39,049 nt of DNA, taken from the NCBI GenBank assembly GCA_016201265.1, contig JACQDD010000187.1:1-39049 (forward strand), written 5' to 3'. The position numbers were made by a program, and so were the translations under genes. This document shows positions 33,227 to 34,729 of the stretch, one piece after another. Below the pieces are notes generated by a model, which made no database searches, was not told the DNA's origin, and saw only the letters and a program-made list of their open reading frames with translations. Numbering within the stretch: position 1 is the stretch's first letter; each line of letters begins with the position of its first letter. The DNA is from Terriglobales bacterium. Lineage in GTDB: Bacteria; Acidobacteriota; Terriglobia; Terriglobales; Acidobacteriaceae.

Positions 33227-33230
33227 AAAT

Positions 33231-33261
33231 CAGTTCTCGGTTCTCAGTTCTCAGTTCCCAG
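33231..33261. repeat. Family B arm upstream of flavoprotein gene
   Basis: CAGTTCTCGGTTCTCAGTTC and so on, four 7-nt units, beginning 5 nt from the start codon. The next 120 bp contain a hairpin near 33309-33340 (CTTCC, TTCGGATT and their complements) but no gene. Confidence 0.82.
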
Positions 33262-33381
33262 TAAATGAGACGATGGATCGGCGTACTTGTCCAGATGCCA
33301 CAGCTTCCATTCGGATTCAACGTAGAAAAATCTGAACGGAAGCGGTTGCAGCGAACTTCTGGAGCAAATGCCTGGCCAATC

Positions 33382-33532
33382 CAGTTCTCAGTTCTCAGTT
33401 CTCAGTTCTCAGTGGCGCCGTTCTTGAAGTCGAGTGCCGAGATCAAGCACCATCAGAAATGGGACTACCTGAGGGCTGAGAACTGACAGCTGAGAGCTTT
33501 TTCTGAGAACTGAGAACCGAGAACTGAGAACT
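33382..33532. repeat. Family B inverted repeat
   Basis: Left arm 33382-33413 (CAGTTCT units) and right arm 33475-33532 (GAACTGA units, with the variants GACAGCTGAGAG and GAGAACCGAGAAC). It adjoins the terminator of the small RNA unit at 33535. Confidence 0.87.
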
Positions 33533-33534
33533 AG

Positions 33535-33573
33535 AAAAAAGAACAGCCCGCAAGCCTCTCAGCCTGCGGGCTG
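33535..33573 (-). terminator. Intrinsic terminator of the small RNA unit
   Basis: On - the sequence CAGCCCGCA, a 12-nt loop and TGCGGGCTG form a perfect 9-bp GC-rich stem, followed at once by TTCTTTTTT. It is the clearest Rho-independent terminator in the window. Confidence 0.85.
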
Positions 33574-33748
33574 CCCGGTGGACTGGTTGGGATTGACTGA
33601 GGCGGTCACTCTCGTGGCCCCTCGCTCACTCCGGTACCCGGCACAGCCTGTGCCGGGCGGATCAGCCCATACTCACGGATAGTTGCGAGAGAATGTCCCT
33701 GATTTCCCCGACCGAGGGTCCTCAGGAACTCCCCTTAGAGCTACCGCT

Positions 33749-33805
33749 CTAAGTCTCAGCCACCTCACCTGGTCTGGTACTACTGTGACTTTCAGAACTT
33801 GTCAT
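33749..33805 (-). CDS. 18-codon ORF with strong ribosome-binding site
   Basis: The sequence AAAGGAGGTG lies 7 nt before an ATG that opens MTSSESHSSTRPGEVAET and stops at TAG. It is rich in Ser and Thr (8 of 18), hydrophilic, and without a signal or membrane segment. The stop codon lies inside an 8-bp hairpin. It has the best Shine-Dalgarno sequence in the region and its own promoter, so translation is likely. Whether the peptide or its translation matters (leader-peptide control) cannot be told from sequence. Confidence 0.45.
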   Translation of the reverse strand: MTSSESHSSTRPGEVAET

Positions 33806-33833
33806 CCGACCACCTCCTTTCCGGTGTACGGCC

Positions 33834-33862
33834 ACATTACAAAAAATCAAACCTGGGGTCAA
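33834..33862 (-). promoter_or_regulatory. Sigma-70 promoter of the small RNA unit
   Basis: On -, TTGACC (33857-33862) and TAATGT (33834-33839) are 17 bp apart. Transcription would start near 33827, 22 nt before the small ORF. Confidence 0.65.
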
Positions 33863-33925: not shown

Positions 33926-34049
33926 AAAACCATAATCACAACCCTGCTGTACATGCCCGCCGGGCATCTACCTTCGTTACATCCCCGCACCTAGACTGAA
34001 AGTACCCTGCAACGCAGGTCGGCTTTCCCTAAGTCACAGATCTTTCAAG

Positions 34050-34122
34050 CAGTTCTCGGCTCTCGGCTCAGTTCTCAGTTCCCAGTCACACCACTACTCA
34101 GGTGTTTCTGAGAACTGAGAAC
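34050..34122. repeat. Family B inverted repeat at ubiX stop
   Basis: Left arm 34050-34086 (AGTTCTC-type units) and right arm 34107-34122 (TGAGAACTGAGAACTC). It ends 4 nt before the ubiX stop codon. Confidence 0.82.
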
Positions 34123-34126
34123 TCAA

Positions 34127-34729
34127 CTAGCCCTTCCACCGGTACGCGTCCTTCTGTGGCAGCCCGATGTGGCCCAGCACGCGGTTCGCGAACTCCTGCG
34201 CCATCGCCTCCAGGTTGGGCGGGTGGTTATAGAACGCGGGGATCAGCGGGAATATCGTCGCGCCCGCGTCGGCAGCTAGCGACATGTTGCGGATGTGGAC
34301 CTTGTTCAGCGGCGTTTCGCGCACGCACAGCACCAGCGGCCGCCGCTCCTTGAGGGTCACGTCAGCAGCCCGCTCGATCAGGTGAGAAGCGATGCCGTTG
34401 GCAATCCGGGCAAGGGTGCCGACGCTGCACGGGATCACCACCATCGCGTCCGAAGGATACGACCCGCTGGCCACGTTGGCCCCGATATCGGCGTTCGCCT
34501 GCTGCTGAATCTTGAGAGAAGGCGCGCCGATGATCTGACGTAGGAGCTCAGAACGGCCTTCGATTTTGAGTTCCTCGGCCATGACGCGCAAGGCACTGTC
34601 GGAGGCGATGAAGTTCACCGTTCTCACCCGGTCGTCGCGCTCGACGGTGAGCAGCAAGTGCTTGAGAAACAACGATCCGCTGGCACCGGTGGTGGCGACG
34701 GTGAGATTTTCCGGGGGCGGGATAGGCAA
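34127..34729 (-). CDS. ubiX: Flavin prenyltransferase UbiX
   Basis: Makes prenylated FMN, the cofactor of UbiD-type decarboxylases. VATTGASGSLFLKHLL (residues 11-26) is the FMN-binding start, IPCSVGTLARIANGIASHLIERAADVTLKERRPLVL is the characteristic middle, and ETPLNKVHIRNMSLAADAGATIFP follows. The length of 200 residues is normal. The start is TTG at 34729, with GGAG 6 nt upstream. No ubiD is in the window, so the partner must lie elsewhere. Confidence 0.95.
   Translation of the reverse strand: MPIPPPENLTVATTGASGSLFLKHLLLTVERDDRVRTVNFIASDSALRVMAEELKIEGRSELLRQIIGAPSLKIQQQANADIGANVASGSYPSDAMVVIPCSVGTLARIANGIASHLIERAADVTLKERRPLVLCVRETPLNKVHIRNMSLAADAGATIFPLIPAFYNHPPNLEAMAQEFANRVLGHIGLPQKDAYRWKG

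Follow-up and report, generated by a model that had tools for sequence, protein, structure and literature searches.

What is encoded by a small, apparently self-contained unit in an otherwise gene-free stretch of an acidobacterial contig? The window, meaning the whole 39,049-nucleotide stretch of Terriglobales DNA analyzed here, carries on its minus strand (33862-33535), by sequence reading, a promoter, the Shine-Dalgarno (SD) sequence AAAGGAGGTGGTC, an 18-codon open reading frame (ORF), a hairpin at the stop codon, a stem of 10 pairs, and a terminator. This unit occupies a 900-bp gap flanked by two genes, one of the flavoprotein family (Pfam PF02441), which we take to be UbiX-like, and one for an FAD/NAD oxidoreductase. 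A sequence-only reading had placed all of these parts where we find them, judged the full set unlikely to arise by chance, and offered a dual-function small RNA, a micro-protein gene, or a translation-controlled leader as possible identities; as a whole, its interpretation is partly supported. The features are as follows, with P2a and P2b denoting two helices discussed further on.

33827-33535, minus strand: window RNA; the Ms_IGR-5 match starts at 33827
33834..33862, minus strand: sigma-70-like promoter TTGACC-17-TAATGT, from sequence; TTGACC at 33862-33857, 17-nt spacer, TAATGT at 33839-33834
33821..33827, minus strand: conserved RNA 5′ end ACACCGG; ACAC kept across phyla, Ms_IGR-5 match beginning at 33827
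33808..33820, minus strand: very strong SD AAAGGAGGTGGTC, 13 nt complementary to GATCACCTCCTTT with one G-U
33749..33805, minus strand: mini-ORF MTSSESHSSTRPGEVAET, 18 sense codons; ATG at 33805, TAG at 33751-33749
33761..33766, minus strand: GAGGTG, SD-like motif, with three codons between motif and stop
33757..33764, minus strand: P2a 5′ strand GGTGGCTG, from the own-versus-swapped test in other clades; invariant in the window genus
33734..33753, minus strand: 8-bp hairpin containing the stop codon, CTTAGAGC/GCTCTAAG, from sequence and folding
33636..33658, minus strand: 10-pair hairpin GCCCGGCACA/TGTGCCGGGT, loop GGC, from sequence and folding; region variable among relatives
33595..33606, minus strand: candidate P2b 3′ strand ACCGCCTCAGTC, just 5′ of AATCCC, at the same position as the P2b strand of other clades
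33589..33594, minus strand: conserved AATCCC motif; a similar motif in relatives of other clades
33577..33585, minus strand: P2a 3′ strand CAGTCCACC, from comparison with relatives and the own-versus-swapped test
33535..33576, minus strand: intrinsic terminator, 16-pair stem plus T-run, from terminator analysis

Chance is indeed a poor explanation for this set. The window RNA folds with a z score of -5.8, none of 200 shuffles being equally stable, and a DNA search of the same genus found the unit in 21 of 24 genomes, its own included (counted from the listing; G018, G020, and G022 are left out because their best match is a low-complexity repeat tail only). The terminator stem, read earlier as 9 bp, has 16 pairs. 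The promoter sequence is present as first read, but it agrees with the consensus at only 8 of 12 positions, and a consensus promoter scan lists no site there. Of 32 window-genus and nearby loci, 30 have TTGA[CT] in the 62 nt preceding the SD, a count of presence anywhere in that span rather than at a scored -35 position, and transcription probably starts at or near ACACCGG (33821..33827). The sequence GGATCACCTCCTTT, which we read as a putative 16S 3′ end, is present in 1 of the 24 same-genus genomes, and the window's own assembly holds no exact copy of it. Repeats of the CTGAGAACT type (CAGTTCTCAGTTCTCAG) flank the unit at window positions 33230-33535 and 34050-34123; they recur at many sites in the window genome and genus and are the source of most low-scoring matches in the same-genus DNA search. 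MicroRNA-like and snoRNA-like Rfam matches within 34047-34130, where there is an inverted CTGAGAACT repeat, were taken as chance.

We compared the window with Rfam. At gathering cut-offs the whole window yields no match, and tmRNA families are absent both from the window at gathering and from an E-value scan of the region. Scored by E-value, however, the window RNA matches RF02471 (Ms_IGR-5) at 29.3 bits (E = 1.1e-4), a score that does not reach the gathering cut-off of 45 bits but spans the whole model, terminator included (model positions 1-184, window 33827-33538). The earlier remark that no RNA family fits is thus overtaken by a full-model match, albeit one below the family cut-off. Judged by this match, the window RNA is a divergent relative of Ms_IGR-5, an actinobacterial small RNA, with which it shares the 5′ end, the SD region, GUGAGGUGGCUG, the 3′ element, and the terminator; we hold this identity and the anatomy above with high confidence. 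An RF02471 search of 149 genomes of the phylum, run with stricter filters under which the window's own genome was not recovered, matched 8 genomes at E ≤ 0.01 and 1 above the cut-off (G194, 50.6 bits); 1 of the 8 (L028), which is without the SD/GAGGTG anatomy, was regarded as a chance match and is not counted. None of 14 control genomes matched. When 14 loci were checked against RF02471, three passed the cut-off, all of them from Zixibacteria (L240, 56.8 bits; L241, 56.6 bits; L247, 52 bits), the other three of the six Zixibacteria loci scored 42.5, 38.2, and 32.1 bits, and L190 alone of the eight other loci, all acidobacterial, reached E = 0.01. Because three of six pass, the Zixibacteria are tied to the actinobacterial family independently of R1, our own sequence model of the RNA 5′ part (44 loci, 70 positions, trained largely on pattern-scan loci). 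R1 also provides continuity through intermediates, since it draws on actinobacterial and acidobacterial loci and one Zixibacteria locus and finds those same Zixibacteria members. On these scores the tie to RF02471 is strong in Zixibacteria and, for many Acidobacteriota, weaker.

Genome contigs were scanned with a pattern of two short motifs, which fixed the SD and GTGAGGTGGCTG and left start, stop, and frame free. At least 119 loci were found, mostly in mycobacteria, Nocardia, Nocardioides, Rhodococcus, Micromonospora, and their relatives, and, among the matches listed, also in Acidobacteriota (including a Blastocatellia) and in one Zixibacteria MAG. At E ≤ 0.01, R1 matched 62 of 297 Acidobacteriota genomes (31 of the 62 being the window genome or its family), 35 of 98 genomes from the phylum that includes a Zixibacteria MAG, and 98 of 246 from the phylum to which a Mycobacterium belongs, nearly always once per genome; the 20 listed of the 235 acidobacterial misses include no same-family genome. 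R1 places that had no locus were fetched for 20 of 34 acidobacterial, 15 of 15 Zixibacteria-phylum, and 20 of 81 actinobacterial cases, and all 20 of the weaker actinobacterial matches fetched have the SD, the motif, and an in-frame start and stop. The 61 further actinobacterial places lie outside this read set, and a few of them match the SD part only and may be chance. The Zixibacteria loci L202-L220 and L240-L252 are compact, with about 112 to 127 nt between the 5′ end and the start of the terminator, and make a good minimal form for structural work. A phage search gave no match and viral contigs gave 0 exact pattern matches, and we rejected a phage origin; a plasmid search with a mycobacterial copy gave a single match, in a Nocardia farcinica record of 2.66 Mb.

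Across this range the ORF is a constant. In all 252 distinct copies, the window's included, the start shares its frame with a stop whose position behind a GAGGUG-type motif is fixed. The count sought this stop 14 or 15 nt past the motif at any site in the locus, kept the candidate with the best start, and therefore favors the mini-ORF reading. These copies comprise 20 from the window genus and family, 12 from nearby Acidobacteriota, 45 from other Acidobacteriota, 142 from Actinomycetota, and 33 from Zixibacteria. Counted from the G of GAG, the stop lies at 15 nt in 248 copies and at 14 nt in 4. With the site fixed beforehand by the scan pattern, a recount found a stop at the same codon and an in-frame standard start in 119 of 119 loci, among the matches listed. 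A stricter SD pattern applied to 268 loci (missing in L188, L199, and L272, and with more than one candidate site in 23, where the best was taken) gave 249 distinct copies, none without a stop or a start. The claim of a dual-function-like RNA with a real ORF is supported.

Start codons are standard in 238 of the 252 copies (118 AUG, 97 UUG, 23 GUG) and otherwise AUU (9), AUC (2), AUA (2), or CUG (1), and the stops are 227 UAG, 14 UGA, and 11 UAA. A standard start is found in the other two frames in 28 and 0 of the 252. ORF length varies from 10 to 22 codons and SD-to-start spacing from 7 to 15 nt, and the SD-to-stop distance modulo 3 takes all residues (115/75/62); since the frame is always kept nonetheless, inherited sequence alone is insufficient as an explanation. 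Within the window genus, ORF lengths differ by multiples of three, and in one locus, L003, AUC replaces AUG. AUU starts occur at L208, L242, L245, L248, L249, L252, L255, L265, and L272, AUC at L003 and L257, AUA at L263 and L266, and CUG at L237; the nonstandard starts in relatives are in frame, with an SD spacing of 7 to 9 nt.

What is kept appears to be translation to a fixed stop, and the encoded residues largely are not. In the variable part of the ORF, differences at codon positions 1, 2, and 3 number 323, 310, and 402, so that third positions are modestly in excess. GAG is preceded in most cases by an NGU codon whose first base varies, so that the residue is R, C, S, G, or another. No synonymous variant of GAG GUG was met among the loci compared, an absence that is partly built in, as the motif was fixed by the scan pattern and is favored by the R1 and RF02471 models. 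In four actinobacterial loci the motif is shifted by one base relative to the stop, and start and stop are still in frame. Neither the codon positions nor these register-shifted relatives show the conserved peptide expected of a dual-function small RNA.

The fixed stop lies within RNA structure. In helix P2b, the partner of the stop codon and its neighbors is an element directly preceding a conserved AAUNCC. Among 29 distinct Zixibacteria rows, 96.6% of cells in P2b are paired and four of the seven pairs are changed on both sides; shuffles reach the observed values in 0 of 500 cases on four measures and in 1 of 500 on a fifth, and sliding the partner destroys the pairing. When each copy's own P2b partner was compared with swapped partners, the permutation test gave 0 of 1,000 in Zixibacteria, in Actinomycetota, and in other Acidobacteriota, the swapped duplexes being weaker, and a nonsignificant 180 of 1,000 in the window genus, where variation is small. 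P3, a stem between the P2b strands, likewise gave 0 of 1,000 in each of the three clades and a nonsignificant 333 of 1,000 in the window genus, in a test that pairs crude halves of the loop. These permutation tests ignore shared ancestry, and the anchor pattern places wrong 3′ anchors in a few rows (e.g., L008, L024, L030, L145, and L236), which were left in. A stop codon inside helix P2b, continued by P3, is thus supported in three clades by covariation or partner-swap tests. For the second putative helix, P2a, which would join the 3′ element CAGnnnACC to GGUGNCUG of the ORF, the evidence is weaker: the effect is small (0, 0, and 4 of 1,000), and there is little variation, none of it in the window genus. 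In that genus the stop codon is instead part of a local hairpin. The stop-codon strand (window 33753-33734) can pair either locally or with the 3′ element (33606-33595), giving two mutually exclusive folds.

Other pairings were tried and set aside. An H-type pseudoknot joining the P3 strand (GUUGGG in Zixibacteria) to CCCAAC after AAU had weak or absent support, at 285 (Zixibacteria), 30 (Actinomycetota), 628 (window genus), and 24 (other Acidobacteriota) of 1,000, with an invalid energy, probably from the almost empty loop of L236, inflating the actinobacterial mean; we set it aside because the local hairpin P3 explains the same strand better. P1 of the Rfam model, pairing the SD flank GGUC with GACC or GGAC in the ORF, was weakly supported (window genus plus nearby loci, 300; other acidobacteria, 18; Actinomycetota, 137; and Zixibacteria, 6 of 1,000). 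Actinobacterial terminator loops (e.g., L029, L037, and L057) carry GUCCA, which resembles the SD flank GGUCCA or GGUCC, is complementary to GGAC in the ORF, and is possibly a second interaction in that group; the window copy lacks it.

A mini-ORF that ends inside RNA structure suggests that ribosomes may switch the RNA. We favor a stand-alone small RNA of the Ms_IGR-5 kind that would act in trans and be gated by translation of its obligatory mini-ORF, a reading that we regard as about evenly poised between right and wrong; the anatomy is well supported, and the output of the RNA we infer. A 30S subunit would load on the strong SD, and the ribosome would run 10 to 22 codons to the stop, where it would melt P2a and P2b. 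With the stop in the A site, GAGGUG would lie 6 nt upstream of the P-site codon (the last sense codon), an initiation-like spacing that by itself suggests that the ribosome may be held there. Opening of P2a and P2b would expose the 3′ AAUNCC...CAG...ACC region, which without translation would be folded away, and the freed 3′ element could then be an effector in trans, on mRNAs or on a protein. The RNA would thereby report ribosome loading or termination. A more ambitious proposal, which we consider doubtful, is that the RNA is a cross-phylum sensor of translation initiation or termination, with an extreme SD coupled to starts drawn from the near-cognate set (AUG, GUG, UUG, AUU, AUC, AUA, and CUG) and to a helix-locked stop.

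Gating of a stand-alone RNA has to be weighed against four other explanations, two of which turn on whether the RNA is a gene and whether its ORF matters. Gene order in the window would suit a translation-controlled leader (attenuator) of the downstream flavoprotein gene, as the sequence-only reading had allowed, and in 8 of 20 loci of the window genus and family the downstream neighbor is a flavoprotein homologue (cluster c11). A strong terminator and about 300 nt nevertheless separate the RNA from that gene, informal inspection showed no antiterminator, and neighbor genes, compared by crude longest-ORF calling plus Pfam, differ between genera and even within them; other relatives have a convergent downstream gene (L037) or unrelated neighbors such as a class IV aminotransferase with a THAP4-like beta-barrel, an alpha-amylase, a pyridoxal-dependent decarboxylase, a class III aminotransferase, or a glycosyltransferase. 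The conserved, regulated downstream gene that marks a cis-acting leader or attenuator was not found, and we rejected the leader as very improbable. Because the neighbors differ, the RNA is most likely its own gene. A plain noncoding small RNA with an accidental ORF would accord with the Rfam type, "Gene; sRNA," yet it is contradicted by the frame, which 252 of 252 copies, drawn from three phyla, preserve across SD-to-stop distances of all residues modulo 3, and is barely credible.

The ORF could instead be the point of the RNA. If the unit were a micro-protein gene, the RNA would be just an mRNA and its product the 10- to 22-residue peptide, especially its E-V-x-x-x end; retention of the ORF in all 252 copies, E-V in the 248 copies of usual register, and the somewhat larger number of third-position differences (402 versus 323 and 310) all speak for it. 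The RNA motif, however, accounts for the peptide end, as no synonymous GAG GUG was met and the preceding residue changes while NGU is mostly kept. The four loci with the motif out of register have other residues there, the rest of the peptide is variable in length and sequence, and a long covarying 3′ structure would be superfluous. With the frame kept and the peptide variable, a micro-protein gene in the ordinary sense, one of the identities first proposed, strikes us as quite unlikely. A ribosome or 30S sink, in which the strong SD and the internal GAGGUG would bind 16S tails and titrate or park ribosomes with no regulatory 3′ output, we also think unlikely. It shares its first half with the gating model and draws on the 13-nt complementarity to GATCACCTCCTTT, the second SD-like motif, set ahead of the stop at a spacing like that of initiation, and the UUG or rarer starts of many relatives, but it leaves unexplained the covarying stop-codon helix, the conserved 3′ element, and the constant start-stop frame.

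The translation-gated RNA that we favor resembles several known systems in part. The trp leader and TnaC are leader-peptide attenuators or arrest-peptide upstream ORFs; here too an ORF is short and its translation should remodel the RNA structure around the stop codon, but the window RNA has no conserved downstream gene, and a strong terminator follows directly. AUU-type unusual starts are known from infC and pcnB and are an occasional choice in the mini-ORF (AUU, AUC, AUA, or CUG in 14 of 252). In the dual-function small RNAs SgrS/SgrT and SR1/SR1P, the encoded protein is functional. The window RNA is likewise an independent small transcript with an ORF, but it keeps the frame rather than the peptide, and its stop codon is built into RNA structure. 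Both of these pairs are named in PMC11133741.

Homologues of Ms_IGR-5 in Mycobacterium abscessus and M. smegmatis carry ribosome footprints (PMC4974804), as do most characterized Escherichia coli noncoding RNAs according to the same paper, which asks whether such small ORFs code and, in its sections 9 and 10, does not single out Ms_IGR-5. The RNA is reported in Streptomyces lividans (PMC8079986), S. avermitilis (PMC8780764), and M. smegmatis (PMC10454040), and it is not treated in the passages considered of PMC11133741, PMC8388888, and PMC6429828. A search of open-licence full texts found no paper on the Ms_IGR-5 mini-ORF, though one may exist elsewhere, and gave no function assigned to the RNA. 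Rfam describes RF02471 as a small RNA gene of actinobacteria; we find it in two further phyla as well, and each copy examined has an open mini-ORF. What was known, then, is an actinobacterial small RNA family, and what appears new by comparison of relatives is its three-phylum range, its obligatory mini-ORF, and the stop-codon helix.

A family filed under actinobacteria, mycobacteria and streptomycetes included, thus appears to be an ancient gene, single-copy in most cases and shared by at least three phyla. Its anatomy is concrete and testable, with start, stop, GAGGUG, stop-codon helix, and 3′ element all assigned, and genes of this kind can escape both protein and noncoding RNA annotation. 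A conserved frame without a conserved peptide suggests that the signal is translation itself. If the sensor proposal were true, the efficiency with which ribosomes start on and exit from a meaningless mini-ORF would set the fold of a free regulatory RNA.
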